Source of the DNA: Clostridiales bacterium
GTDB lineage: Bacteria > Bacillota_A > Clostridia > Saccharofermentanales > Saccharofermentanaceae
Assembly: GCA_017537905.1 (NCBI GenBank)
Contig: JAFYJX010000047.1
Coordinates: 1-28,930 of the forward strand
DNA: 28,930 nt
Direction: 5' to 3'
Both the position numbers and the translations under genes were made by a program. Below the pieces are notes generated by a model. It was given only the letters and a program-made list of their open reading frames with translations. It ran no database searches and had not been told where the DNA came from. Shown piece after piece: positions 71-22,129 of the stretch; positions within the stretch are counted from its first letter, which is position 1; each line of letters begins with the position of its first letter.

Positions 71-1921
71 ATGTGCGGAATAGTCGGTTACACAGGTAAG
101 AAAAAGGCAGCTCCGATCCTCCTGGACGGTCTTGCCAAGCTCGAATACAGAGGTTACGACTCAGCAGGTCTCGCAATCAGAGACGGTGATGCAAATCCGG
201 TTGTCGTTAAGGCAAAGGGCAGACTTAAGGTACTTGCCGAGAAGACTGACGGCGGCGCAGCACTCAAAGGCACATGCGGCATCGGCCATACAAGATGGGC
301 TACCCACGGCGAACCCACGGAGAATAACGCCCACCCCCACATCGTAGATGACTATAACGTCGTAGGCGTACATAACGGCATCATCGAGAACTACCAGGAA
401 TTAAGGGACAAGATGATCCGTAAGGGTTACAAGTTCTATTCCGAGACAGACACCGAAGTTGCCATCAAGACTATCGACTACTACTACAAGAAATACACAC
501 ACGACCCGATCGAAGCTCTCGCCAAGACAATGGTCCGTGTAAGAGGCTCTTACGCTCTCGCAGTAATGTTCAAGGATCACCCGGGCAAGATCTTCGTAGC
601 ACGTAAGGACTCCCCGATGATCATCGGCTACGACAAGGACGCTTCCTACCTCGCATCCGATGTTCCCGCGATCCTCAAGTACACCAGATCCGTTTACTAC
701 ATCAACGATCTCGAAATGGCATGCCTCGAGGCAGGTAACGTTACCTTCTATAACCTGGACGGCGACACGATCGAGAAGACTCCCACAGAGATCGACTGGG
801 ACGCAGCTTCTGCTGAAAAGGGCGGCTTTGAGCACTTCATGATGAAGGAGATCCACGAGCAGCCCAAGGCAGTACAGGATACTTTGAATTCTGTAATCGT
901 ACCTGACGGCGATTCTTACAAGATCGACCTTACAGCAACAAACCTCACAGACGAGGATCTCAAGAGCTTTGAGCAGATCTACATCGTAGCCTGCGGCTCC
1001 GCATATCACGTAGGCTGCTGCACACAGTACATTATCGAGCAGCTTGCCGGCATCCCCGTAAGATGCGAGCTCGCTTCCGAGTTCAGATACAGAACGATGC
1101 CTCTTAACAAGAACGCGCTCTGCATCATCATCAGCCAGTCCGGTGAGACCGCTGACTCACTTGCAGCATTAAGAGACGCCAAGAATAACGGCATCAAGAC
1201 TCTGGCTATCGTAAACGTTGTCGGATCTACCATCGCGCGTGAAGCAGACTATGTTCTCTACACTCTGGCAGGTCCCGAGATCTCCGTTGCCACCACAAAA
1301 GCATACTCAGCACAGCTCGCTGTCTGCTATATCCTCGCTATCAAGTTTGCCCTCGCGAAAGGCACGATCACGGCAGAGCAGGCAAAGGAACTTACAGCAG
1401 AAGTAATGTCCATCCCCGGCAAGATAAACAAGATCTTAGATGACAAGGAGCGTCTCCAGTGGTTCGCAGCAAAGCTCGCAGCCCAGAAGGACATCTTCTT
1501 CATCGGCCGCGGCATCGACTATGCGATCACACTCGAAGGAAGCCTTAAGATGAAGGAGATCTCCTACATCCACAGCGAAGCTTATGCTGCAGGCGAGCTT
1601 AAGCACGGCACCATAAGCCTCATCGAGGAAGGCACTTTCGTAATAGGCGTTCTCACACAGAGCGGACTTTATGAGAAGACTCTCTCCAATCTCGTTGAGA
1701 CAAAGGCAAGAGGCGCTTACCTCATGGCTCTCACTTCTTTCGGCAATTATGCGATCGAGGATACGGCAGATTTCGTAGTCTATGTTCCGAAGATTAATGA
1801 GCTTTTCGCAGCATCCCTGGCTGTCGTTCCGCTCCAGCTTCTGGGCTACTATGTATCCTGCGCAAGAGGTCTCGACGTAGATAAGCCCAGAAACCTCGCA
1901 AAGAGCGTTACTGTAGAGTAA
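71..1921 (+). CDS. glmS: Glutamine--fructose-6-phosphate aminotransferase (isomerizing)
   Basis: This cytosolic enzyme makes glucosamine-6-phosphate from fructose-6-phosphate and glutamine (EC 2.6.1.16), the first step towards UDP-GlcNAc and peptidoglycan. The protein begins MCGIVGYTG, which exposes the catalytic Cys of the class II glutaminase domain after Met removal (about residues 2-230). Two SIS sugar-isomerase domains follow: CGSAYHVG near 315 and SQSGETADS near 360 in the first, FIGRGIDYA near 478 in the second. The C-terminus KPRNLAKSVTVE is the conserved family tail. Its 616 residues match the usual length of about 600-610. The start is supported by GGAGAA at 57-62, eight bases upstream. 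A TAAAAT at 30-35 could be a -10 box, with no good -35. Only 70 upstream bases are visible, so a glmS ribozyme cannot be assessed. Identification is secure. Confidence 0.98.
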   Translation: MCGIVGYTGKKKAAPILLDGLAKLEYRGYDSAGLAIRDGDANPVVVKAKGRLKVLAEKTDGGAALKGTCGIGHTRWATHGEPTENNAHPHIVDDYNVVGVHNGIIENYQELRDKMIRKGYKFYSETDTEVAIKTIDYYYKKYTHDPIEALAKTMVRVRGSYALAVMFKDHPGKIFVARKDSPMIIGYDKDASYLASDVPAILKYTRSVYYINDLEMACLEAGNVTFYNLDGDTIEKTPTEIDWDAASAEKGGFEHFMMKEIHEQPKAVQDTLNSVIVPDGDSYKIDLTATNLTDEDLKSFEQIYIVACGSAYHVGCCTQYIIEQLAGIPVRCELASEFRYRTMPLNKNALCIIISQSGETADSLAALRDAKNNGIKTLAIVNVVGSTIAREADYVLYTLAGPEISVATTKAYSAQLAVCYILAIKFALAKGTITAEQAKELTAEVMSIPGKINKILDDKERLQWFAAKLAAQKDIFFIGRGIDYAITLEGSLKMKEISYIHSEAYAAGELKHGTISLIEEGTFVIGVLTQSGLYEKTLSNLVETKARGAYLMALTSFGNYAIEDTADFVVYVPKINELFAASLAVVPLQLLGYYVSCARGLDVDKPRNLAKSVTVE

Positions 1922-1950
1922 TCCCGGACTTCTGTCCCATTATCGGGATT
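1920..1950 (+). terminator. Weak hairpin after glmS
   Basis: AATCCCG (1920-1926) pairs with CGGGATT (1944-1950) around a 17-base loop, and GGAC/GTCC (1926-1937) is an alternative inner stem. There is no clean U-tract, only CTTTTAT about ten bases later. It may be a leaky terminator or processing hairpin separating glmS from the next gene. Its function is inferred. Confidence 0.3.
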
Positions 1951-1982
1951 GTCAAGGACTTTTATACGGCGCAATGCGCGTC

Positions 1983-1988
1983 TATAAT
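1983..1988 (+). promoter_or_regulatory. -10 box directly before an ATG (leaderless candidate)
   Basis: A perfect TATAAT ends six bases before the ATG at 1995, so transcription would start at or next to the start codon. No Shine-Dalgarno-like purine stretch precedes the ATG. The -35 region is poor (TTTATA at 1961-1966, 16-base spacer). Confidence 0.5.
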
Positions 1989-1994
1989 ATTCGT

Positions 1995-3647
1995 ATGAGC
2001 AAACGCAGACCTTACATCTTTATGACACAGGACAAGCTGATCGATCTTTGCAGATACGACATCGGCTGGATCGAGATCGTCGGCGGTTCTGAGCTGGATG
2101 CATATCCGGATTCAGGCTTCGACGTCCAGTGTGAGAATGAATATCCGATGATGTTATCGGATCTTAAGACTGCGCTCTGCCATTTTGAGGACGAGAAGCT
2201 CTCGTTTGACGACTTTGCCTTTGACTGGTGGTGTCCCATCACAACATATTTCTATGAGGACCTCTGTTTGGATGAGCTCTTGGGACCTGATCCTGATAAT
2301 ATCTGTGATCTTCCCCTGCCTCCTCTTCCGGAGACTGACGAGGACATGATAGTAACTGTACTTCTGAAGATCGCCAAGATCGCCGATAATTTCGATGAGA
2401 ACGGCGGTTTCCCGAAGGGTATTGCTTCCGAAGTCCTTGGCCTTCCGAATCTTATCAACATGATCGAGACCTATGAGGATAACAAGGACCTGCCGCCCGA
2501 AGAGCGCACATATACCAGGGATCAGATGATCACATTCCTCAATCACTGGGATAACAGCCTGCTCCTGGCTGACGCGCGCGAAGATGTTATCAGACATTTC
2601 GTTGAATTTACCAACACCCTGTGCGACCAGCACGTTTTCGAGGCGCTTAAGATCAAGGCATTTGCATGTAACGGCGGCAATGCCGCTTTCCCCTGCGATT
2701 ACCAGGAAGCAGTCAGGCTCCTTACGATCCTTCTTAAGGAATTCGGCTTCGGTTATGCTGCCAATGCTCTGGGCTTCATCTACTACGACGGCAAACTTAC
2801 GGGCAAGCCGGACTTCGATAAGGCCTTTGCCTATTTCGCGATAGCATCCAACTACGGCATCTCTGAGGCCAAGCTTAAGTTTGCCGACATGCTTCTTTTG
2901 GGAGATGCGGGCAATCCTGACCCCATTCTCGCCTATAACACTTATCTTCAGGTCTATCACGACGCGAGGATCAGGTTCGAATCAGGCGACTACAGCAGCA
3001 ATCTGCCCGAGAGCGCCATCAGGATCGCGAGAGCTCTGAAGCTCTTCCCCGACCAGAAGGTCAAGAGGCTTAAGCTCCTATTAGAGGCGACATATTCGGC
3101 ATTTGTCCGCTATCAGAACAACAAGATGTACTCAGATCTGGAATTCTCCAAGGAAGTCCAGGCTGAGATCGATAAGACGATCAACGAATTTACCAAGGAC
3201 GATCCCGTTAAGATCAATTCCGGCTGGCAGAATCTTGGCCTTGATGATGTTAACGACGTCTTTGACGATTTTGCAGGTCCCCCGTTCCCTGCTTACTACA
3301 CAGTCGGCGTAAAGAAGCTTAAGAGCAACAGATATAAGCTCACCTTAAAGCGTCACTCTCTGTTCCCGGATGCTTATCCGCCGCTGTCTTTGTCAGTCCA
3401 GCCCTGGCTCCTGCGCGCCGGACTTTGCGATAATCTGGTATTCACCGTACCTCCGGAGTGCGGCAATGAAGCCATGGATTATCTCGCGAGATCAGGCGAG
3501 GAAGGCACTTTCGATAAGCTAGTCGTAAGGAGCAATGAGCAGAAGACTTCTTCCAGATTCTCGTTTGTAAGGAACGGCCAGGTCGTTCTCGGTTTTGAAG
3601 CCGGTAAGATCTTCTTCAACAAGCCCTCAGGCAAGACCATAGAGTAA
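1995..3647 (+). CDS. Sel1-like repeat protein of unknown function
   Basis: This is a predicted cytosolic protein of about 550 residues with no signal peptide or membrane segment. The middle (roughly residues 210-350) carries Sel1/TPR-like helical repeats, for example the stretches around EAVRLLTILLKEFGFGYAAN and DFDKAFAYFAIASNYG, which usually mediate protein contacts. The acidic N-terminal third and the C-terminal domain of about 150 residues are not recognised. The frame is open from an ATG at 1974, but TATAAT lies inside that extension, so the start MSKRRPYIFM at 1995 is preferred. This would make the mRNA leaderless. It follows glmS by 73 bases and probably has its own promoter. Molecular function is unknown. 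Sel1 assignment is moderately confident. Confidence 0.8.
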   Translation: MSKRRPYIFMTQDKLIDLCRYDIGWIEIVGGSELDAYPDSGFDVQCENEYPMMLSDLKTALCHFEDEKLSFDDFAFDWWCPITTYFYEDLCLDELLGPDPDNICDLPLPPLPETDEDMIVTVLLKIAKIADNFDENGGFPKGIASEVLGLPNLINMIETYEDNKDLPPEERTYTRDQMITFLNHWDNSLLLADAREDVIRHFVEFTNTLCDQHVFEALKIKAFACNGGNAAFPCDYQEAVRLLTILLKEFGFGYAANALGFIYYDGKLTGKPDFDKAFAYFAIASNYGISEAKLKFADMLLLGDAGNPDPILAYNTYLQVYHDARIRFESGDYSSNLPESAIRIARALKLFPDQKVKRLKLLLEATYSAFVRYQNNKMYSDLEFSKEVQAEIDKTINEFTKDDPVKINSGWQNLGLDDVNDVFDDFAGPPFPAYYTVGVKKLKSNRYKLTLKRHSLFPDAYPPLSLSVQPWLLRAGLCDNLVFTVPPECGNEAMDYLARSGEEGTFDKLVVRSNEQKTSSRFSFVRNGQVVLGFEAGKIFFNKPSGKTIE

Positions 3648-3652
3648 TAAAC

Positions 3653-3680
3653 TGGACTAAATGGCCGGAAGGGTTATAAT
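3653..3680 (+). promoter_or_regulatory. Sigma-A-type promoter for the lipoprotein-like gene
   Basis: TGGACT (3653-3658) and TATAAT (3675-3680) are separated by 16 bases, immediately after the preceding stop codon. The predicted start near 3687 gives a leader of about 30 bases that contains the RBS AGGTG at 3704-3708. Confidence 0.6.
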
Positions 3681-3716
3681 GCTCTTGGGGAAAAATAAGG
3701 AATAGGTGCATTAATT

Positions 3717-4553
3717 ATGGCTCACAGAAAAAGGAACCACCATTTTACACATGTTATTGCCTTGATGATCTTATCAAGCGTGCTTTTCTGTGCTTGTGAG
3801 GCGATAAGCATAGAACCTTCCAAGACCACTGAGAGTACGGAAACAGAGATCACTCTGCTGCCGGATTCTTCTAACTGGAGTTTTGAGGTTGAAGGTTCGG
3901 AAGCAACAACTACTACCACAGCTCAGACACCGGAAGAGACTGACGAAGAAGATCCTGAAGATACGGAGACTTCTTCTGATCCCGATGCCACAACGGAGAC
4001 CACGGCTGAGCCCACTTTCGTTTCTTCTTCCAAGGAATTGGGAAGCGGTCCTTATACCTTTATGAGAGGCAGCATGAAGTTCCATTCGCAGACTGACATC
4101 TCGATGATGATCAAGCCCGAAGACGGCTCCGTTTATGACTTTGGCGCCAGGGACTGCCAGTGCAGCTGGATCGACACTTTCTATCTTAAAGACACATACA
4201 AGATGAAGGCTTATGACGCCACTTACCGTTGGCTCGGCTACTACAACAAGGATTTTTCCATAAGTTTCAAGACTTATAAGGAAATTGGCAAATGGAAGTC
4301 GCCCAAGGGCAATGACTACACGCTCTATCTGGTCGAGATCCTGATAATCTCACACAATATGGAGATAAGGATCCTGCCGAAGGAGACAAACGAACTCAGC
4401 GTTTATAACGTTTCCATCAACGGCAGAGGTTATTATGCGTCTGAAGAACAGCTCCAGATGATGGATTTCGTGTTAAGCGCCTTGACGCAGAAACCCTATA
4501 TAGATCCCCTCGAAGGAATCTACACAGGAACCGATCACAAGTATTATTTCTGA
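3717..4553 (+). CDS. Putative lipoprotein with Thr/Glu-rich linker, unknown function
   Basis: The protein has 278 residues. A basic N-terminus (MAHRKRNHH) and a hydrophobic stretch (about residues 11-24) lead to LFCAC, a degenerate lipobox in which Cys27 is the likely lipidated residue. Residues of about 30-105 are low-complexity Thr/Glu/Asp/Pro, typical of an exported spacer that crosses the cell wall. The remaining 170 residues form a compact Tyr- and Trp-containing domain I do not recognise. The RBS AGGTG lies eight bases before the ATG. The stop codon TGA abuts the stop of the convergent decarboxylase gene with no intervening base. Surface location is inferred from the signal; function is unknown. 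Confidence 0.75.
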   Translation: MAHRKRNHHFTHVIALMILSSVLFCACEAISIEPSKTTESTETEITLLPDSSNWSFEVEGSEATTTTTAQTPEETDEEDPEDTETSSDPDATTETTAEPTFVSSSKELGSGPYTFMRGSMKFHSQTDISMMIKPEDGSVYDFGARDCQCSWIDTFYLKDTYKMKAYDATYRWLGYYNKDFSISFKTYKEIGKWKSPKGNDYTLYLVEILIISHNMEIRILPKETNELSVYNVSINGRGYYASEEQLQMMDFVLSALTQKPYIDPLEGIYTGTDHKYYF

Positions 4554-5669
4554 TTATTTGATGTAATCCATGAAGTTTTCTTTGTTCTCTAATGCCGTGG
4601 TCGTCGGTCTTCCCAGATCGTCCCTGGCACCAATGGAACACTTAACTTCAATGAGACTTAATTCATTTCTGGATTTAGCTGCTTCGAGCTCTCTGTCCAG
4701 ATCCTCGAAAGTATCAACGCACACAGCATTGGGATAACCGCATGCCTTGGCGATCGCAACGATATCGATGGAACCTGCAACTGTCGGCATTCCGCCTACT
4801 GTCTCGTGAGCGCTGTTGTTGATAACGACATGGATCAGGTTGGAGGGCTTGTTTGCGCCCATTACAGCCATTGAACCCATGTGCATCAGGACTGCGCCGT
4901 CACCGTCAACGCACCAGATGCGCATATCGGGCTTGTTTATGGCAACTCCGAGCGCGATAGATGAGGAATGTCCCATAGATCCCACCGTAAGGAAGTCGTA
5001 TTTGTGGGACTGTCCGTTTGCTACACGCGTCTCGAAAAGCTCTCTTGATGCTTTACCCGTGGTAGAAACGATCGGATCTTCACCGGATGCTTTAACTATG
5101 TGCTGGATGATCTCTTCGCGGATCATCTTGTTGTCATTTTTGTATTCGACCTTGCCGTCAAATGAGAGCGCGCCCTTTCTGATAACGAAAGCAACGTCTT
5201 TGCCCTTAGCTAAGATCTCCCTGAATTCAGCCATCTTAGCCTCAACTTCTTCATCGGTAGTTTCCTTGCCGATAATGAAGGAAGCAATGTCCATATCATC
5301 CAGGAGCTTCACCGTGACTTCACCCTGATAGATGTGCTGGGGCTCGTCGTGAATACCGGGTTCACCTCTCCAGCCTACGATGAATACCATGGGGATCGCA
5401 TAGACCTTATCGTTCAAAAGCGATGCGACGGGATTAATGATGTTGCCCTCGCCGGAGTTCTGCATGTAAACTACCGGAACCTTACCCGTAGCGAGATGAT
5501 AGCCTGCTGCCAGAGCCGTGCAGTTGCCCTCGTTAGCCGCGATCACATGATGCTTCGGATCAATTCCGTATGTAGCCATCAGATAATTGCAAAGAGCCTT
5601 AAGCTGCGAATCCGGAACTCCGGAATAAAAATCAGAGCCTATTATCTCAACCAGTTTTTCAACTTTCAT
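4554..5669 (-). CDS. aepY: Phosphonopyruvate decarboxylase (stand-alone)
   Basis: This is a thiamine-diphosphate enzyme that converts 3-phosphonopyruvate to phosphonoacetaldehyde (EC 4.1.1.82), the committing step of C-P compound biosynthesis. The 371 residues fit the family. The N-terminal half has YSGVPDSQL and AANEGN, which carries the Glu expected to activate ThDP. The C-terminal half has the ThDP/Mg site VDGDGAVLMHMG followed about 25 residues later by NN. The tail LGRPTTTALENK is typical of the family. The RBS GGAGGG precedes ATG by four bases. Usual partners (phosphoenolpyruvate mutase, aminotransferase or dehydrogenase) are not in the window, and both neighbours are unrelated. Sulfopyruvate decarboxylase is the main alternative activity. 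Expression is probably from its own promoter near 5721-5726. Confidence 0.88.
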   Translation of the reverse strand: MKVEKLVEIIGSDFYSGVPDSQLKALCNYLMATYGIDPKHHVIAANEGNCTALAAGYHLATGKVPVVYMQNSGEGNIINPVASLLNDKVYAIPMVFIVGWRGEPGIHDEPQHIYQGEVTVKLLDDMDIASFIIGKETTDEEVEAKMAEFREILAKGKDVAFVIRKGALSFDGKVEYKNDNKMIREEIIQHIVKASGEDPIVSTTGKASRELFETRVANGQSHKYDFLTVGSMGHSSSIALGVAINKPDMRIWCVDGDGAVLMHMGSMAVMGANKPSNLIHVVINNSAHETVGGMPTVAGSIDIVAIAKACGYPNAVCVDTFEDLDRELEAAKSRNELSLIEVKCSIGARDDLGRPTTTALENKENFMDYIK

Positions 5670-5700
5670 AATCCCTCCGGCAAAACATTGTCTGCGATTT

Positions 5701-5732
5701 TAGTGCTGCTTTAGTAACACATTATAGCACTA
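5701..5732 (-). promoter_or_regulatory. -10 box and overlapping inverted repeat upstream of aepY
   Basis: On the minus strand TATAAT (5726-5721) is a consensus -10 lying about 50 bases upstream of the ATG. The 7-bp arms TAGTGCT (5701-5707) and AGCACTA (5726-5732) form a perfect inverted repeat with an 18-base gap, bracketing the -10 and the likely start point. This is the layout of a repressor operator. No good -35 was found (TTTAAT at a 19-base spacing is the best). The regulator is unknown. Confidence 0.5.
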
Positions 5733-5761
5733 TTAAATTTCAGGGATTAAAGACAAGGGTA

Positions 5762-6421
5762 TCAATGCTTGTCCAGAGTGATTATCCTGTTGCAGTTATC
5801 GGCAACTTCCTTGTCGTGGGTGACAATGATCATGGTCGTATTGGTTTCCCTGTTGAGCTTCTTTAAAAGGGCCACGATCTCCGCTTCCGTCTCGGCATCG
5901 AGAGCGCCTGTCGGCTCGTCTGCCAGAAGCAGAGCAGGCTTACAGACCAGAGCCCTTCCAATCGCAACTCTCTGCTTCTCTCCGCCTGAGAGCTTATTGG
6001 GATATTTATCCCTGAGGTCTGCTATGCCGAGCGATTCGAGCATCTCGTGAGTACGGTGGCGGATCTCCTTTTCGCCAAGGCCTGCCTCCCAGAGTCCCAA
6101 CTCGACGTTCTCGTAAACGTTGTAATCATTTATCAGCGCGAAATGCTGGAGGATAATGCCTATCTTATTACGTCTGAACTTAACGCCGTCTGATGCGGTC
6201 TTGATCTTTACCGGAGTGCCGTCAAAAATATATTCACCGCTGTCTATGGGTTCTATTCCGGCGATCATGTTAAGGATCGTGGTCTTTCCGCATCCGCTCT
6301 TGCCCATTATCGCGACAAGCTCGCCTTTATCGACCGAGAGATCGAAATTATCACAGATAATAGTTTCCTTGTCGCCGGTCTTAAAACTCTTGCAAATGTT
6401 CTTAAATTCAACTAATGGCAT
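5762..6421 (-). CDS. MacB/LolD-type ABC transporter ATPase of the small-protein cassette
   Basis: This is the cytoplasmic ATPase expected to drive the two permease halves upstream. Counting from the upstream Met at 6427, it has Walker A GKSGCGKTT (42-50), the Q-loop (Q94), signature LSGGEKQRVAIGRAL (146-160), Walker B LLLADE (166-171) followed by PTGALD, and the H-loop His204, so it is fully equipped. The segment FALINDYNVYENVELGL resembles, from memory, ATPases associated with lactococcin-972-type bacteriocin loci. The frame opens at 6427, but AGGAG is only two bases from that ATG and eight from the ATG at 6421, so 6421 (MPLVEF) is chosen. It starts 15 bases after the permease stop and is the last gene of the cassette. 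No clear terminator follows. Confidence 0.88.
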   Translation of the reverse strand: MPLVEFKNICKSFKTGDKETIICDNFDLSVDKGELVAIMGKSGCGKTTILNMIAGIEPIDSGEYIFDGTPVKIKTASDGVKFRRNKIGIILQHFALINDYNVYENVELGLWEAGLGEKEIRHRTHEMLESLGIADLRDKYPNKLSGGEKQRVAIGRALVCKPALLLADEPTGALDAETEAEIVALLKKLNRETNTTMIIVTHDKEVADNCNRIITLDKH

Positions 6422-6436
6422 TTCCATATCTCCTCA

Positions 6437-7714
6437 TCAGACGATTTTGTCGCGGATAAGCATATCCAGATTGTTTTCCCTATTGATCTTAAATACCGGT
6501 ATCAGTGACACCAGAACGATGATTCCCGAGAAAGCCAGTATCTGCCATGCCGGCACCAGTAACTTCTCGTATTCCAAAATCGACAACGCATATGTCGGAA
6601 AGAATGAGACTCCCAGGAATATGACCATCTCGATTATCAACGACAGATTTATCTTCCATAGCGGAATTCCGCAGCACATATAGATGCAGAATACAGACCT
6701 GTCCTGAACGGTACGGTTATACAGTACCGAACTTAATGAACAAGTGCATATGATGCATGCAATCAAGGCCAGAACACCTATGAGCGCTACGTTCTTGGCA
6801 GATACGTCTTTGGTCTCGCTTATCTCAATGCCGTCAACAGGATTAGTTTCATACGTATAATAGCCGTGCGCTGCAGTTATCCTGTTGATCTCTTTCTGCA
6901 CATCCATTGTGGGATCGTCGCAATAAACCTGATCTAATTCTTCATACAAGATGTAATAATCTTCCATGCTCATATCGAAATCTCTGGGCACTATCGGATG
7001 GACAGTAAGTATCCTGTCATCCAGGTACTCTACATGACCCCACAGACTCATGTACATGTTATCTTCCAGGATACCTATTACAATTGCTGTATCACCCTTC
7101 AGTGCAATCGTATCGCCAGGCTTAAATGTAGCAGCAAAATCGTTGCCGAGAATTACCGGGAAAGGCACATTTGGATCAAATGTCTTTTTGTCATCTTCAG
7201 TAAAGAAGCGGCCTTCCTTCAGAGAAAGATTGAAGACCTTTTCGGCATTTACAGGTACATTCATGAAATATATGAAATTGATGTAATCATCTTCATAGTA
7301 TTCTCCGCGATTATCCAGACCCTCCTTCATTTGATCATCAACTTGTTTGTAGGCATCCAGTTTTGTTTTGTCTTCAACAAGCCACATCGGGATTGCAATT
7401 ACGCGTGACTGATAAAGCGTCAGATGAGGATTGCTGTCAATCTCTTGGTTTACCTCTTGCCCGATATAATACATGGGTGATTTATTCAACTTGTCTGACG
7501 ACATGGCCAGGTATTCGTCATTGCTCATTTCAAGCCCATAGTGCCTGGCCACTTCATTGCCGTAATGTATGTCAAAATGATCCTTCAGAAAGTAATAATT
7601 CTGAAGCAGAACAAAGACAGTCATTGTACATAGGATCATGTTAAGAAGGATTACGAAATTAGCTTTCGGATGATTCTTTACCGATCTGAAGATATTATTG
7701 ATTATTAGTCTCAT
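6437..7714 (-). CDS. MacB-like ABC permease half (second)
   Basis: The protein has about 425 residues from the preferred start. One TM helix (about 20-40) is followed by a large extracytoplasmic domain (about 40-310) and three TM helices at the C-terminus (around ALIGVLALIACIIC, LSLIIEMVIFLGVSF and LAFSGIIVLVSLIPV). This is the four-TM plan of MacB/FtsX-type permeases. The domain contains the MacB-type segment LKEGRFFTEDDKK. The frame is open from 7750, but MRLIIN at 7714 overlaps the upstream stop as ATGA, so translational coupling is likely and this start is preferred. With the next permease it probably forms a heterodimer served by the single ATPase. Sequence is more A+T-rich than the flanking genes. 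Whether it exports or gives immunity is unknown. Confidence 0.8.
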   Translation of the reverse strand: MRLIINNIFRSVKNHPKANFVILLNMILCTMTVFVLLQNYYFLKDHFDIHYGNEVARHYGLEMSNDEYLAMSSDKLNKSPMYYIGQEVNQEIDSNPHLTLYQSRVIAIPMWLVEDKTKLDAYKQVDDQMKEGLDNRGEYYEDDYINFIYFMNVPVNAEKVFNLSLKEGRFFTEDDKKTFDPNVPFPVILGNDFAATFKPGDTIALKGDTAIVIGILEDNMYMSLWGHVEYLDDRILTVHPIVPRDFDMSMEDYYILYEELDQVYCDDPTMDVQKEINRITAAHGYYTYETNPVDGIEISETKDVSAKNVALIGVLALIACIICTCSLSSVLYNRTVQDRSVFCIYMCCGIPLWKINLSLIIEMVIFLGVSFFPTYALSILEYEKLLVPAWQILAFSGIIVLVSLIPVFKINRENNLDMLIRDKIV

Positions 7715-8847
7715 ACCTTTTGTATTACCTCTTTTGGATCGAGCGTCCATTCAATGATGAAAACCACAAATATCCATACGAACATCAATAAGAACCCTGC
7801 ACCCATCATTGACGCGCAATAACTGATCAGCCAATTTACCGGAAGGGAGAATACTCCGAAAATTGTCAGTCCGATGTTAACTAAAAGCCCTGCAGAGATT
7901 CCTGCAAGAAATGCAATAACAAAAGGCTTTGTTGTCCTGACTATCACTTTTCTGAGCCTGATGCCCTGGACCTTCATTACAGCGATCTCTACCATTTTCT
8001 TTCTGATCGACTGTATTAGAACATTTATAAACGCGATCGATCCGAGCAGGACCATTAAGATCTTCAGATAGTTTTTCAAATACATTCCGTCAGCAACAAT
8101 ATCAATAAATGCTCTGGGTGTTGAATGTATCTTCAATCCGCACCCGAAAAGGCCCTGTGATTTAAGGCACATTTCGTCATAGACAGACCCGTTATTGCTG
8201 CTGCAATCGATATAGTACATACCGTTCAACTGCTCTTCGGGAGTCAGGCTTCCAAGGTTAACAAAGATCACTTCGTCGATTGGTGATTCTCCGCTAAAGC
8301 CGGCTACACCAATCACTTCATACTCCTTGTTCATATATTCAAAATATTGCTTGCCATTTTTAGAGAATACTGAGTCATAATATTTTCTTCCGATAACTGC
8401 ATACGGATAGTCAGACAGACACTCCTCTTCCGTGAAAAAACGGCCGGATACAAGCGGAGGCGGCATGATCTTACCCTTGTAGGTTACGCCTCTCAATAAA
8501 CCTCTATGAAGCGATGCCAGATAGTTTCCGCTGCCTGACATCAGTAATGTTTCCACGGCTGTCCTGCCATCTTCAAGAGTCTTGTTTTTTAATACGAAAG
8601 ATTCATCTATCGGTTCTTCGCGAATCGGAACTGTTTCTTCCTCGTCAAGAAAAGAAACAGCTGCCATACGGTAAGACAAATCATCAAGATCAAAAAAGAC
8701 AGCATCTTTTGTTATAAAGCCTCTGGCTATCTGCTGGTTATAGTTATATTCAGCATCAGTGCATGCGAAAACAAAGCCGACAACCAATACGGAGAAAAAA
8801 ATAAATACTATAAGGAAAATATCTATTCCAATTCTTTTTTTATGCAT
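7711..8847 (-). CDS. MacB-like ABC permease half (first)
   Basis: The 378-residue protein has the same plan as its downstream neighbour: an N-terminal TM helix (about 9-29), an extracytoplasmic domain (about 30-255) with VSGRFFTEEE typical of MacB-type domains, and three C-terminal TM helices (around KILMVLLGSIAFINV, FLAGISAGLLVNIG and GFLLMFVWIFVVFI). It ends in an ATGA overlap with the second permease. The ATG at 8847 has no convincing Shine-Dalgarno, unlike the peptide genes upstream, so its translation may be weak. A GC-rich hairpin lies between it and the upstream small protein gene. The exact start is therefore less certain than the frame. Confidence 0.78.
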   Translation of the reverse strand: MHKKRIGIDIFLIVFIFFSVLVVGFVFACTDAEYNYNQQIARGFITKDAVFFDLDDLSYRMAAVSFLDEEETVPIREEPIDESFVLKNKTLEDGRTAVETLLMSGSGNYLASLHRGLLRGVTYKGKIMPPPLVSGRFFTEEECLSDYPYAVIGRKYYDSVFSKNGKQYFEYMNKEYEVIGVAGFSGESPIDEVIFVNLGSLTPEEQLNGMYYIDCSSNNGSVYDEMCLKSQGLFGCGLKIHSTPRAFIDIVADGMYLKNYLKILMVLLGSIAFINVLIQSIRKKMVEIAVMKVQGIRLRKVIVRTTKPFVIAFLAGISAGLLVNIGLTIFGVFSLPVNWLISYCASMMGAGFLLMFVWIFVVFIIEWTLDPKEVIQKV

Positions 8848-8880
8848 ATGATTTCAAAAATAAGAGAATAGTAATCATTC

Positions 8881-8909
8881 AGGAACGGCAGCAGAACACT
8901 GCCGTCCCC
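8881..8909 (-). other. Intercistronic GC-rich hairpin
   Basis: The arms AGGAACGGCAG (8881-8891) and CTGCCGTCCCC (8899-8909) pair over 11 positions in the minus transcript, counting G-U pairs, with a 7-base loop. No U-tract follows, so it is not a standard terminator. It sits 14 bases past the stop of the first small protein gene and before the transporter genes. It could stabilise the upstream mRNA or cut down read-through. Confidence 0.55.
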
Positions 8910-8923
8910 GAACAATCAGGTTA

Positions 8924-9277
8924 TCAGTTAATTACGCAGGTAGCTCCTACATGGTTAACATAGCTGTGATCAACAGGATAGGAACTGTTGCAGCAGCTGT
9001 TGATCAAAATAAACGTGGTTGTTGTACGCATTCCACGCTTTTTTGAGTCTTTTCCTCCTAACCATGTCTTCATGGTTACTGTTTCAGGATTATTACCGGG
9101 ATCTGCTCTTTTAGGTGACCTGGTAAAATCAGCATATCCTTTATCCACCATAGAACTGCCGCTGTAATACGTATCCTTCCAGGAATATGTAAGCTTATAA
9201 GAGGCAGCAACTACCGGCAAAGTCATGCACGCAATAATGGTTACAATTGAAAGCAACAAAACAATAGTCCTTTTCAT
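8924..9277 (-). CDS. Small secreted protein, paralogue 1 (bacteriocin-like candidate)
   Basis: The protein has 117 residues. A Sec signal (MKR, hydrophobic 4-20, Pro21, VAA at 23-25) predicts cleavage after Ala25 and a mature chain of about 92 residues. IIAC at 14-17 resembles a lipobox, but the hydrophobic run continues past it, so signal peptidase I is favoured. The mature part aligns without gaps to the upstream paralogue (about 71 of 117 identical), with shared blocks DTYYSGSS, VDKGYA, NNPETVTM, TTTFIL, NSC and NSSY. Cys95 and Cys114 are shared and could form a disulfide; Cys96 is extra here. The RBS AAAGGAG sits seven bases before ATG. I do not recognise the family. A secreted antimicrobial is inferred from the ABC cassette that follows. 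Confidence 0.78.
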   Translation of the reverse strand: MKRTIVLLLSIVTIIACMTLPVVAASYKLTYSWKDTYYSGSSMVDKGYADFTRSPKRADPGNNPETVTMKTWLGGKDSKKRGMRTTTTFILINSCCNSSYPVDHSYVNHVGATCVIN

Positions 9278-9304
9278 ATTATTCTCCTTTACTGCCTGAT
9301 CGTT

Positions 9305-9325
9305 TTAGAAACTTCCGGTTTCTAA
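9305..9325 (-). other. Hairpin upstream of small protein gene 1
   Basis: A perfect 8-bp inverted repeat, TTAGAAAC (9305-9312) and GTTTCTAA (9318-9325), encloses a 5-base loop between the two small protein genes. It lies 14 bases upstream of the Shine-Dalgarno of gene 1. It is A+T-rich with no U-tract. A role as operator, processing site or translation modulator is possible; none is shown. Confidence 0.5.
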
Positions 9326-9363
9326 TCGACGGATATGGTTTCCTGAAAAAACAACATGAATGC

Positions 9364-9720
9364 TTAACGGCCAATTGTGCAGCTTGCGCCTACAGAGCGG
9401 CCATTTTCGTGATCAATGGCATAAGAACTGTTGATGCAGCTGTTAACTAAAATAAAAGTGGTAGTTTTACGGTTTCCTACTTTTGTTCCGTTGCTATTTC
9501 GTAACCATGTGTTCATAGTTACGGTCTCGGGATTATTAGCCGGATCAGACCTGGCCGGAGATCTGTCAAAAGTAGCATATCCTTTATCAACTCTGGAACT
9601 GCCGCTGTAATAAGTATCCATCCAAGTGTATGAAGTTCTATAATAAGCAGCTGCTGCAGGTGCAGCTAAGCACGCAACCATGGTTGCAACCGAAAGTGCT
9701 AAAACGATTATCTTTTTCAT
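9364..9720 (-). CDS. Small secreted protein, paralogue 2 (bacteriocin-like candidate)
   Basis: The protein has 118 residues from the preferred ATG at 9720, which has AAGGAG seven bases upstream. The frame is open to 9747, but the upstream ATG has no RBS and would spoil the signal peptide. The signal (MKK, hydrophobic core, PAAAA at 21-25) predicts a mature start near Tyr26. It shares about 61% identity with paralogue 1, and the two leaders share AAGGAGAATAATATG exactly, so they arose by tandem duplication. Cys95 and Cys114 are conserved. The mature part is rich in Ser, Thr, Tyr and Asn, suggesting a beta-rich secreted fold. It is the first full gene of the cassette. The family is not recognised. 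Alternatives are an adhesin-like or signalling protein. Confidence 0.78.
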   Translation of the reverse strand: MKKIIVLALSVATMVACLAAPAAAAYYRTSYTWMDTYYSGSSRVDKGYATFDRSPARSDPANNPETVTMNTWLRNSNGTKVGNRKTTTFILVNSCINSSYAIDHENGRSVGASCTIGR

Positions 9721-9756
9721 ATTATTCTCCTTATACTTCTTGATCATTTTTTGTGA

Positions 9757-9777
9757 CGTGATCTATGCAGCATCACG
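9757..9777 (-). other. Leader hairpin upstream of small protein gene 2
   Basis: CGTGAT (9757-9762) and ATCACG (9772-9777) form a perfect 6-bp stem with a 9-base loop. It lies between the stop of the possible leader ORF (9787) and the Shine-Dalgarno of gene 2 (9727-9732). The position suits a leader-peptide-controlled switch, but the stem is short. Confidence 0.35.
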
Positions 9778-9786
9778 ACCGATTAT

Positions 9787-9810
9787 TCAGTTATCTTTTA
9801 CCTGTCCCAT
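9787..9810 (-). CDS. Possible 7-codon leader ORF with strong Shine-Dalgarno
   Basis: The minus strand reads ATG GGA CAG GTA AAA GAT AAC TGA (MGQVKDN). It is preceded by GGGGAGGTG (minus 9826-9818), seven bases from the ATG, one of the strongest ribosome binding sites in the window. Nothing else in frame uses this site. It lies 66 bases upstream of small protein gene 2 with a hairpin between them. It may be a regulatory leader peptide or the remnant of a longer gene. It is too short for coding statistics. Confidence 0.35.
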   Translation of the reverse strand: MGQVKDN

Positions 9811-9887
9811 GGGTCTGCACCTCCCCGTATTGATAATGTCGAGGGTACAAAGATTGGGTTTTCAAATCAATAGATTTTGCGAAACTG

Positions 9888-9922
9888 AGGGATAAAGTAA
9901 AAAATCCAGGGATAAAGTAAAA
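9888..9922. repeat. Two 15-bp direct repeats, 20-bp period
   Basis: AGGGATAAAGTAAAA occurs at 9888-9902 and again at 9908-9922, identical in both copies and starting exactly 20 bp apart, close to two helical turns. They lie between the divergent small-protein cassette and the ribU promoter (-35 at 9954). Such spacing is typical of tandem binding sites for a dimeric activator, but no regulator gene is nearby. Confidence 0.55.
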
Positions 9923-9953
9923 TTTTTGGCCAAAATCGGACTGTTTTTGACCC

Positions 9954-9981
9954 TTTACAATTCCTACCACGTGAGTATAAT
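9954..9981 (+). promoter_or_regulatory. Promoter of the FMN riboswitch-ribU unit
   Basis: TTTACA (9954-9959) and TATAAT (9976-9981) are separated by 16 bases. The predicted start near 9988 coincides with the first base of the riboswitch aptamer. Confidence 0.75.
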
Positions 9982-9986
9982 TTGAA

Positions 9987-10122
9987 GCGTCCAAGGCGGA
10001 GTGTGATTCTCCGACCGGCGGTGAACGTCAGACGCGTAAGCCCGCAAGCCTCATAAATATCTACGGTGAGGTTGACCCGGTGAAATTCCAGGGGCCGACG
10101 GTAAAGTCCGGAAGAAAGGAAG
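9987..10122 (+). ncRNA. FMN riboswitch (RFN element)
   Basis: The conserved aptamer blocks are present in order: GGCGGAGTGTGATTCTCCG then ACCGGCGGT (9995-10021), AGCCCGCAAGCC (10039-10050), GACCCGGTGAAATTCCAGG (10074-10092), and GCCGACGGTAAAGTCCGG (10094-10111). FMN binding normally turns expression off. The Shine-Dalgarno AAAGGAAG (10115-10122) forms or abuts the 3' strand of closing helix P1 (GUCC near 9989-9992 opposite GGA at 10118-10120). No terminator fits in the ten bases left before the ATG, so control is most likely at translation initiation. Confidence 0.95.
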
Positions 10123-10132
10123 TGTATTTTCT

Positions 10133-10807
10133 ATGTCTGATACTCAAGTAACCGTTAAGGCGGATTCTAATGCCGAGCGCAAGATCATGATCCGTCGCAT
10201 TGCCGCATGCGCCATTCTTTCAGCTATGGCCGTTCTGCTCATGTACCTCGAAGTACCGCTCCCGTTTATGCCGGTATTCTTAAAGTTCGATTTCTCAGAA
10301 CTGCCCGTACTGATCGGAGCATTTGCGTTAGGTCCTGTCTGGGGCGTAGTTATTGAGCTTTTGAAGAATCTTATACACCTCCCCGTTACACAGACAATGG
10401 GAATCGGTGAGCTCTCTAACTTTATCTCAGGCGTCATCTATGTCGGAACAGCAGGCCTCATCTACCGCAAGCTCAGAACAAAGAAGGGTGCAGCAATTTC
10501 AATGGTAATCTCTACTTTGGTTCTCGCTGCCGTTTCGATCCCCGTCAACGCATTCATCACGTTACCTTTGTATGGAACAGCTATGGGATTCCCTATGGAA
10601 GCGATCATTGAAACCAGCGCAAAGGCTAACCCTCTGGTAAAGGATAAGATCTCACTTCTCTTGGCAGTATTCGTTCCGTTCAATCTGTTCAAGGGTACAG
10701 TTGTAGGTCTCATCACATTCTTCGTTTATAAGCCCATCTCAAAGCTCATAAATAAGACTTACGATAAGACGCATCAGAAAGAACCTGACGGTCTTAAGAA
10801 AGCATAA
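10133..10807 (+). CDS. ribU: ECF transporter riboflavin-binding S component
   Basis: This 224-residue membrane protein captures riboflavin for import with the shared ECF module (EcfA, EcfA', EcfT), which is not in this window. It has five or six TM helices, and the stretch with FLKFDFSELPVLIGAFALGP followed by ELLKNLIH is characteristic of RibU. The polar N-terminus (about 20 residues) and basic C-terminal tail are cytosolic. The FMN riboswitch directly upstream supports riboflavin as substrate. The start is fixed by AAAGGAAG ten bases upstream of ATG. The gene is monocistronic, ending at a strong terminator 5 bases after the stop. Confidence 0.95.
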   Translation: MSDTQVTVKADSNAERKIMIRRIAACAILSAMAVLLMYLEVPLPFMPVFLKFDFSELPVLIGAFALGPVWGVVIELLKNLIHLPVTQTMGIGELSNFISGVIYVGTAGLIYRKLRTKKGAAISMVISTLVLAAVSIPVNAFITLPLYGTAMGFPMEAIIETSAKANPLVKDKISLLLAVFVPFNLFKGTVVGLITFFVYKPISKLINKTYDKTHQKEPDGLKKA

Positions 10808-20425: not shown

Positions 20426-22129
20426 TCATTTTCTTCCCAAAACAGAGGGGAGTATGAGGGATACCAGGAAGCCTATCAAGACGTTGATAGCGCATCCGAC
20501 AGCAACTGCCGTAAGCACGTGTCCTACTAAGATTCCGATGATCAGGGCCATCGCTGAAGGCGTAAGTCCGAAGTATAAGAAGACCATCTGTACGATTACG
20601 GATATCGTCTGTGCCTGGTCTCTCGGAAGTGACAGCGAGATCAATGTTCCTACGACCGTGGCAAAGAAGCTGATCGAGAGAACGAAACAGAACCATACAA
20701 GCACATTCAGAGGATTTGCCTTAAGCATTACCGCTGCAACGATCATAGGAAGCAGGAGGTCGATCGCCGTGACAGAAAGGCTGCCTAAGATCGAATACAA
20801 GAGCTTCTTGTGATGAGATTCAGGGATGAGCATGAAGAATTCCCTTGAAGTGTCTTCCCTGATTGGATCGCCCAGTGTTCTGTAGAAGGCCATGACGCCC
20901 AGTACAGCGGCCGGAATGAAAAATGCATCACCGTGTGAATAATCCCTGGCGAACCATGCAACAACGCCTGCAACGATCGTGTAGATGATCATTGTAGTGG
21001 AGAATATCTTAAGCTTGGCAAATCTGAATCTGTTGAAGACTGCCTTGAAGAAGAATACATTCGCGCCGCTTCCGTAACGGAAACCTTCTCTGTCGATCGC
21101 ACCCTTTCTCTCCTTCTGTCTTGTGGCAACGCCGCCCTTTGCGGCTTTCTGTACTCCCTCCATTGCTGCAGCCTTGCGCTCAGCAGCGAACATGGCATCT
21201 TCATAGAAGTCAGCCTTGAGCTTCCAGATGATGAGCACGAGAATTGCGCAGGCAGCGATGAAAAGGCCTAAGAACATAAGTGACATCGGCACATCACCGG
21301 TGCAGGCATAATATGAAATGCCTCTGAGCCATCCCCAGAACGGTACCCAGTGAGTCTTAGAACTTGCGAAATATGCGAAAAGTCCTTCAACGAGACTGAG
21401 CTTTGAGATTGCGGTAAATGCCGCAAATCCGAGGAAGATAGCACCATATACGACAGCGAGGAAATTCTTGATGTTTCCCGCGCCTGTCTTCATTCTGGAT
21501 GTGATCGTATAGAAGATCACCTGAACCAGCGTGCTGAACACGAGTATCATTGCGTAAACAATGATGCATGATATAGCTCCCCACATGGTAAGACCGGCAT
21601 TAATGGTCAGGTTGGGGATCTGGAACAGCATGAAAAGCGATACTATGAGCGACGTTCCGAGCGTGCACAGCAGCCTGAACATCAGTACGGACTGAGGTCT
21701 CATCGGCGATGCGAACAGCATCGGCACGTCAGCAGGCAGGAAGATCTTCGAAGAGTTCTGCGCGCTTAGGATATTGGTGGCAAGCACCAGTAAGAAAACG
21801 GCAGAGATAACGAGATCTACGATCTGCTCTTTGGTGATGTTATATTTCTGCATCATCTGGCCGATCTTGGATTTCGCGAACGACCCTGAAGCAGCATCTT
21901 CGAGTGTTATTTCTTCGCCCGGTCCGTCTTCATCCTGCTCTAATACAGATGAGATAACGGACTCCGCAGGTTCAGTATCGGATTTGTCATTCTTGGTGAA
22001 AAGACTGGTCACAAGTCCTACCGCGCCGCCGAAAACGATGACGATCAGGATGAATGCCACCCAGGTCTTCATCACCTTCCTAAGCGTGTTAAGAAGCGAG
22101 TGTGAAGCGTAATAAAGAAAAAGTCTCAT
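20426..22129 (-). CDS. ABC-2-type exporter permease
   Basis: The 567-residue integral membrane protein has an N-terminal TM (about 24-44), an acidic extracytoplasmic stretch (about 50-95), and about ten more TM helices in two groups split by a cytoplasmic Lys/Arg/Ala-rich loop (about 310-350). This layout resembles the group annotated as putative ABC exporters in Firmicutes. The start overlaps the ATPase stop as ATGA, so the pair is translationally coupled. The substrate is unknown. The gene ends about 36 bases before a strong terminator. Confidence 0.78.
   Translation of the reverse strand: MRLFLYYASHSLLNTLRKVMKTWVAFILIVIVFGGAVGLVTSLFTKNDKSDTEPAESVISSVLEQDEDGPGEEITLEDAASGSFAKSKIGQMMQKYNITKEQIVDLVISAVFLLVLATNILSAQNSSKIFLPADVPMLFASPMRPQSVLMFRLLCTLGTSLIVSLFMLFQIPNLTINAGLTMWGAISCIIVYAMILVFSTLVQVIFYTITSRMKTGAGNIKNFLAVVYGAIFLGFAAFTAISKLSLVEGLFAYFASSKTHWVPFWGWLRGISYYACTGDVPMSLMFLGLFIAACAILVLIIWKLKADFYEDAMFAAERKAAAMEGVQKAAKGGVATRQKERKGAIDREGFRYGSGANVFFFKAVFNRFRFAKLKIFSTTMIIYTIVAGVVAWFARDYSHGDAFFIPAAVLGVMAFYRTLGDPIREDTSREFFMLIPESHHKKLLYSILGSLSVTAIDLLLPMIVAAVMLKANPLNVLVWFCFVLSISFFATVVGTLISLSLPRDQAQTISVIVQMVFLYFGLTPSAMALIIGILVGHVLTAVAVGCAINVLIGFLVSLILPSVLGRK

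Follow-up and report, generated by a model that had tools for sequence, protein, structure and literature searches.

A minus-strand cassette of two small secreted proteins and a type VII ABC transporter in uncultured Clostridia: a candidate bacteriocin-like system behind a putative quorum-sensing box

The cassette and its genes

The window analyzed here, a stretch of 28,930 nucleotides from Clostridiales bacterium (assembly GCA_017537905.1, contig JAFYJX010000047.1, positions 1 to 28,930 of the forward strand), carries on its minus strand a compact cassette that encodes two small secreted proteins and an ATP-binding cassette (ABC) transporter. An original prediction, made from the sequence alone, had placed five minus-strand genes in tight order at 5762..9826, and all of them are present in that order, namely small secreted protein 1 (9364..9720, 118 residues with a Sec-type signal), small secreted protein 2 (8924..9277, 117 residues), permease A (7711..8847, 378 residues), permease B (6437..7714, 425 residues) and the ABC ATPase (5762..6427, 221 residues). 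Our analysis covers this span together with the adjoining promoter region (9921-9842), which is conserved and lies beyond the span given originally. The two permease genes are indeed coupled by ATGA, in that the ATG of permease B overlaps the TGA of permease A (several permease B analyses used 6437-7711, that is, the gene without its first Met). The small proteins are paralogs, as proposed, with 61% identity over 116 residues (BLASTP 2e-54). The cassette had also been described as more A+T-rich than its flanks, which holds for 7001-10000 (G+C 0.40-0.41), with 6001-7000 at 0.448, but not for the ATPase end (5001-6000, 0.482); the nearest flanks lie at 0.47-0.48 and the remaining profile at 0.45-0.52.

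Between small protein 2 and permease A lies a stem-loop on the minus strand (8872..8918) with 20 pairs, 8 of them G-C. It is possibly a partial terminator, the tail of which has no clean T run.

The small proteins belong to a family of 18 members for which no credible Pfam or NCBIfam match was obtained (best E 0.01, below the cut-off), which bears out the view that the family is unrecognised. In the alignment of all 18, a similarly built signal is followed by a Y-x-G-S region, in which the Gly is nearly invariant, and the likeness beyond is looser. A profile search of 5.8 billion proteins, which by its method was limited to shared five-residue words, returned 24 proteins at E up to 1. AlphaFold2 predicts for small protein 2 a signal helix and six beta strands, with a predicted local distance difference test score (pLDDT) of 78.7 for the best model and of 43-60 for the other four, and fold searches with the small protein gave generic beta sandwiches only, which is unspecific.

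The transporter

Both permeases match MacB_PCD (PF12704), at 39.4 and 29.5 bits with a cut-off of 27, and the ATPase matches PF00005 in the Pfam scan. Hydropathy indicates four transmembrane (TM) segments in each permease, which is the sole fold basis for permease B. Permease A was modeled by AlphaFold2 with a pLDDT of 83 as one TM segment, an extracellular domain and three further TM segments, and its Foldseek matches are MacB, LolC/LolE and, more weakly, YknZ, with E values of 3e-7 to 5e-4 (3e-7 for MacB and LolE) and TM-scores of about 0.3-0.5. The permeases had been thought to represent a single large MacB-like membrane protein that was split into two halves. However, two four-TM subunits and an ATPase make up a complete type VII transporter of normal LolCDE/MacB architecture, so that nothing is split here, and each permease is the half-transporter of an ordinary type VII pair. 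No membrane fusion protein was found among the 17 scanned open reading frames (ORFs) of the window.

A segment of the ATPase had been said to resemble lactococcin-972-associated ATPases. TIGR03608 is indeed the best NCBIfam match, but its 215.3 bits are below the cut-off of 254.85 and only 12 bits over LolD (203.5), so the motif is generic. The ATPases of six related cassettes and a distant one (L054; related loci are given as L and genomes as G numbers) score 208.7-222.8 bits with TIGR03608, like that of the window, and the ATPase of the L084 locus described below prefers LolD. The ATPase of the lactococcin 972 plasmid pBL1 reaches 253.4 bits, just under the cut-off, and TIGR03608 is the sole model that it matches at 1e-50; the window ATPase is thus just loosely alike.

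The cassette in related genomes

A permease A profile built from the window and 32 of 91 relatives gave matches in 22 of the 115 family genomes (E 1e-10) and in 24 of 188 genomes of the order (E 1e-15). We examined 27 near-full-length permease A places, the window included, after partial pieces in L042 and L053 had been dropped. Permease B adjoins permease A at all 27 places and the ATPase at 26, the contig of the 27th ending there. A related small gene lies upstream of permease A at 18 of the 27, usually 26-136 bases before the permease A match, with 285 bases in one L033 operon and about 1.5 kb in L044. The gene order thus recurs in other genomes, as the original prediction had suggested should be surveyed, and its conservation argues against a chance arrangement. 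Small genes also occur in tandem: there are two in the window, three before one permease A in L033, and a fourth before the second L033 operon.

At nine places no small gene was found beside permease A. Among these, L037-L039 look like one near-identical operon group, and L052 offers an upstream sequence of only 95 bases. L042 has the promoter box described below, a frameshifted permease A and no detected small gene. L001, the one genome contig found to carry a related small gene, stems from a metagenome-assembled genome (Ruminococcaceae bacterium RUG14704) and has surrounding genes in common with the window. Its single small gene contains a frameshift and is truncated at the 3' end, whereas its transporter genes read through; as an intact relative of this small protein exists (P0096) and the contig is of metagenomic origin, an assembly error is a possible cause.

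Viewed from the small proteins, the link to the transporter is close among strong matches, and it loosens with weaker ones. Of 20 strong places in the 115 genomes (E <1e-15), 19 adjoin permease A; the remaining one, L077, is flanked by an ATPase and a permease B. On the other hand, six weaker rows (5e-12 to 2e-8; G035, G069, G018, G027) have no permease A and instead precede a gene for a lipoprotein-like protein of 789-806 residues, which in L082 is cut by the contig end. What had been named as breaking the link, small-protein homologs that mostly lack the transporter or transporter genes conserved beside unrelated neighbors, is found in part, in these six rows and in the nine places above. 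For the 15 rows weaker than 1e-7, the regions of three (G014, G049, G097) were inspected. One of them, L084 in G049 (2239-9393), contains a weakly related small gene before a 984-residue FtsX-type permease and an ATPase, with neighboring genes for AgrB, a GHKL kinase and a LytTR regulator. Three of the large lipoprotein-like proteins were scanned (L078, L079, L044), and two of them match solute-binding domains. In L078, L079, L080, L081 and L082, a small-protein relative stands directly before such a large lipoprotein-like gene and not before an ABC transporter. The large protein may be a partner or immunity protein of a second kind.

The promoter box and its link to agr

Upstream of small protein 1, at a distance of 168 bases, stands the perfect direct repeat TTTACTTTATCCC-N7-TTTACTTTATCCC with a 20-bp period (9889..9921, minus strand). 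It is followed by a putative promoter (9842..9870, minus strand) with a -35-like TTGATT at 9870-9865 and a weak -10-like TACCCT at 9847-9842, which was read by eye and is absent from the promoter consensus matches. Taken alone, the window repeat is weak, as 8 of 100 shuffles reach two matches in a single-unit search with two mismatches. However, identical copies of the repeat stand before the small genes of L001, L047 and L079, and none of 200 shuffles reached it in the window or in any of these three. With up to three mismatches, the box has 61 sites in 16 of the 115 family genomes, and a reversed-pattern control gave none. In the aligned sites a -35-like TTGA is conserved 18 bases after the box. 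LytTR regulators bind direct repeats that are mostly 12, sometimes 11 or 13, bases apart and upstream of the -35 element, according to an excerpt of PMC6193735.

In the leader of small protein 1, a GGGGAGG motif was seen by eye before a mini-ORF of 7 codons (9810-9787, minus strand), and in L001 the matching place holds a mini-ORF of 15 codons (again by eye). The former possibly encodes a leader peptide.

The contexts of 60 box sites, 59 and that of the window, were surveyed within 1.2 kb, using tblastn for known genes and a simple ORF rule for small Sec proteins (G022:C66 and G075:C118 were left out). Downstream on the same strand, agrB is found at 12 of the 60 sites, some copies being truncated, and a LytTR response regulator at 8, so that 20 sites precede one or the other; neither was found on the upstream side at any of the 60. 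Small Sec ORFs likewise lie downstream at 18 sites versus none on the divergent side, permease A follows the box at 4 sites, and a 382-residue permease of the L131 type at 2. Other genes are not one-sided, such as agrC (5 downstream, 12 upstream), whose skew the operon order would lead one to expect, and large lipoproteins (6 downstream, 9 upstream). L145 carries a full agr operon at two boxes: between these or immediately behind them are the genes for a regulator (PF00072, PF04397), a GHKL kinase and AgrB (PF04647) as well as a 44-residue ORF. The latter has no Pfam match and is AgrD-like. Relatives of the L145 regulator occur in 13 of the 16 box genomes versus 8 of the 99 others (Fisher p 1.9e-9), and AgrB in 12 of 16 versus 31 of 99 (p 0.0015), both p values being generous because the genomes are related.

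These sequence comparisons lead us to infer an agr-type (AgrA/LytTR) regulator as the one that targets the box, and since it is common to the promoters of agr operons, the window cassette would be part of a quorum-sensing regulon of the agr-like kind. As in known agr and LytTR regulons, direct repeats with a spacing of about two helical turns stand before a signaling operon and exoprotein genes. Different are the box itself, TTTACTTTATCCC with a 20-bp period, and the content of the regulon, which in this uncultured family comprises ABC cassettes as well as small secreted proteins and lipoproteins. The box also precedes a second cassette type, found in L131 (G022, 646-4097), where it is followed by a 143-residue Sec protein, permeases of 382 and 401 residues and a 227-residue ATPase. 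In L135 (G027, 886-3906), a transporter of this type begins about 130 bases behind the box and has no small gene. The L131 permeases and ATPase are not detectably related to those of the window, and neither of the two permeases matched a Pfam model.

That the box precedes lipoproteins and large exoproteins as well would suit a role of the small proteins in matrix formation, adhesion or polymer binding; they would be exoproteins of a fibre degrader under agr control, with the transporter aiding their assembly. The N-terminal region of the L155 exoprotein looks by eye like a carbohydrate-binding module, and the predicted fold of the small proteins resembles generic beta-sandwich domains. However, a dedicated transporter beside the small gene would not be expected for such exoproteins, and it would be left unexplained why transporter genes persist beside a defective or absent small gene. 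We consider this role highly unlikely.

Comparison with lactococcin 972 and other known systems

In the open-licence literature, judged from titles and the beginnings of abstracts, we recognised no description of this cassette. Its layout corresponds to that of the lactococcin 972 (Lcn972) operon of pBL1, as had been proposed, with the order bacteriocin, membrane protein, ATPase, and two Lcn972 loci in the class of G001 also show this order. Both the Lcn972 operon (lcn972-orf2-orf3) and the streptococcin B operon (scbABC) resemble the cassette in comprising a small Sec protein followed by membrane protein(s) and an ATPase in one operon, and in a beta-rich secreted protein, which for the window is a prediction. 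Streptococcin B in addition has a LytTR-type box, recognized by ComE, and transporter genes that are retained without the bacteriocin gene in some strains. In PMC11796350, streptococcin B is described as having a bacteriocin gene, two presumed immunity or transport genes and a ComE box, and strains with scbBC but without functional scbA are reported. ComE is a LytTR-family regulator (PMC6193735, in part). The differences are equally clear: the small proteins of the window have no detectable sequence relation to these bacteriocins and are encoded by two tandem genes, the single membrane protein of 648-733 residues is replaced by two MacB_PCD permeases, and streptococcin B is competence-controlled while the window cassette appears to be under agr-type control.

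A further reading is true lactococcin 972 membership with a divided membrane protein, the division being that of the original prediction. The gene order and the TIGR03608 match, although below its cut-off, speak for this reading, but none of the 18 small proteins matches the lactococcin model (PF09683 or NCBIfam). Comparing the profile of these 18 by hhalign with 4 Lcn972 proteins, a small reference set, gave a probability of 6.7% that covered only the signal peptide, and the permease A profile reached 9.8% against 3 Lcn972 membrane proteins. True membership is therefore scarcely probable. The cassette is laid out, and probably works, like a lactococcin 972 operon, while by the tests run it is not a member of that family.

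Among type VII systems, LolCDE, MacB and YknYZ share with the window transporter the permease A fold, the PF12704 domain of its two permeases, the PF00005 ATPase and two four-TM subunits, but it is the window transporter that is encoded together with small secreted proteins. In Bacillus, the YknWXYZ genes lie apart from the SDP toxin gene, and their product, unlike the window transporter, includes a membrane fusion protein. This MacB-type complex protects against the secreted SDP toxin, according to an excerpt of PMC4887032, and a corresponding self-protection is the likeness that we suggest for the window.

Proposed function

The gene set, its conserved order, the fold class of permease A and the box in common with agr operons of relatives, as computed above, can be combined in a model of quorum-controlled bacteriocin-like proteins with an ABC complex for self-protection, in which toxicity, immunity and AgrA binding are predictions and to which we give about an even chance. 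At high cell density, an agr-type signal would activate a LytTR response regulator, which would bind the repeat at 9889-9921 and turn on one transcript, as the shared box suggests. The two small proteins would leave the cell by the Sec pathway, be cleaved and adopt the compact beta-rich fold that is predicted with low confidence, and they would act outside, probably on the envelope of neighbors that do not possess the cassette. Permease A, permease B and the ATPase would form one LolCDE/MacB-type ATP-using complex that strips the small proteins off the membrane or wall precursors of the producer, thus serving self-protection and not export, and the hairpin after small protein 2 may keep the amount of transporter below that of the small proteins. 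A toxin with self-protection fits the proposed density signal and the dedicated ABC genes, which persist in L001 and L042 although the small gene is broken in the former and was not found in the latter.

The divergence of the small proteins bears on this model. In ten pairs compared (two L030 permease A values were left out, their alignment covering 1 residue), four, namely L033d-L034, L033c-L033d, L033c-L034 and L040-L041, show signals that are 69-89% identical versus mature parts at 20-45%; the corresponding identities are 56-81% for permease A and 73-94% for the ATPase. The window and L030 likewise differ less in the signal (62%) than in the mature part (35%). These values also concern the alternative that the transporter is a density-induced pump for envelope stress or detoxification of antimicrobial peptides, with the small protein as an extracellular accessory or decoy and not a toxin. 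Protection against a peptide toxin has been reported for a MacB-type pump (PMC4887032, in part), and transporters without the small gene exist. An accessory would, however, be expected to track its transporter, whereas in the four pairs the mature parts diverge far beyond permease A; the small genes are moreover tandem in the window and L033, and small-protein relatives occur without permease A. Such a pump is, in our opinion, decidedly unlikely.

The processing of the small proteins is relevant for a further alternative, in which the ABC complex serves release or export and mobilizes the small proteins, perhaps lipid-anchored via Cys 17, from the outer face of the membrane to the surface or medium, so that toxicity is unnecessary. 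This would parallel LolCDE, which extracts lipoproteins, and MacB, which expels periplasmic substrates. Permease A resembles the structures of LolC/LolE and MacB, and a lipobox-like Cys is found in 12 of the 18 small proteins, including both of the window. The other 6 fail the lipobox pattern, and as 4 of these keep a Pro followed by small residues (by eye), like a signal peptidase I site, we tentatively favor processing by this enzyme, with predicted cleavage near residue 25, over signal peptidase II. Nine of the 27 permease A places moreover have no small gene, and Lcn972-like proteins are thought to be secreted by Sec without a special transporter, according to an excerpt of PMC11796350. 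Release or export by the complex thus appears unlikely, though it deserves consideration.

Several observations weigh against the self-protection model. The lipobox-like Cys would be in line with lipid anchoring, and no relation of the small proteins to bacteriocins was detected in Pfam, in NCBIfam or with the Lcn972 profile, as the hhalign result above illustrates. The window and its L001-type relative show no extra divergence of the small protein (93%, with permease A at 90%), and L031-L036, L044-L046, L030-L040 and window-L040 show little or no contrast between signal and mature part. The six weaker rows described above have small-protein relatives in the company of a lipoprotein-like gene and not of permease A. 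As to the quorum-sensing part, the box is present at only 4 of the 27 permease A places and absent from the other 23, and the regions before other small genes yielded no comparable repeat. Neither AgrB nor a close regulator was found in the box genomes G020 and G054 or in G001, the nearest relative, and the box regulon includes many other exoproteins and lipoproteins.

In a wider interpretation, which we advance only tentatively, the small proteins would constitute a new class of Sec-exported beta-sandwich bacteriocins with LolCDE/MacB-type immunity transporters of their own, spread and diversified through an uncultured Clostridia family. In part of this family, the window included, the class would be fired by an agr box with control over a whole arsenal of small secreted products; ABC complexes would be the partners of some (L131 has a separate set of this kind), and the lipoprotein of about 800 residues that of others. 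If the self-protection model is true, an unrecognised bacteriocin-like family of gut-type Clostridia has been overlooked by searches with family models, and its transporter type would allow a direct test of the protective role, a question that is still open for Lcn972 loci. For streptococcin B, experimental data on the immunity and transport genes are lacking according to a passage of PMC11796350. Among the results, the quorum-sensing box lends itself best to testing, and it provides a simple handle for listing a quorum-sensing regulon in uncultured bacteria.

Flanking genes and further observations

Both flanks of the cassette consist of ordinary metabolism genes. Downstream follows a gene for a thiamine pyrophosphate enzyme (4554-5669, minus strand; PF02775/PF02776) that is 98% identical in L001 and presumably resembles phosphonopyruvate decarboxylase. 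On the other side, divergent from the cassette, a flavin mononucleotide riboswitch (9983-10127, plus strand; Rfam RF00050, 87 bits) is followed by the gene for the substrate-binding component of an energy-coupling factor transporter (10133-10807, plus strand; PF12822), which probably serves riboflavin uptake. A putative ABC exporter of family PF16962 is encoded at 20426-22129 (minus strand), away from the cassette.

Two further protein types were noticed by eye to recur near small genes in related genomes, in L030 at 5100-6314. XRE-type regulators with a C-terminal hydrophobic segment occur in L030, L044, L082 and L085, and secreted proteins of 195-198 residues with an FSLIDYLETH-like stretch are found in L030, L078 and L085.

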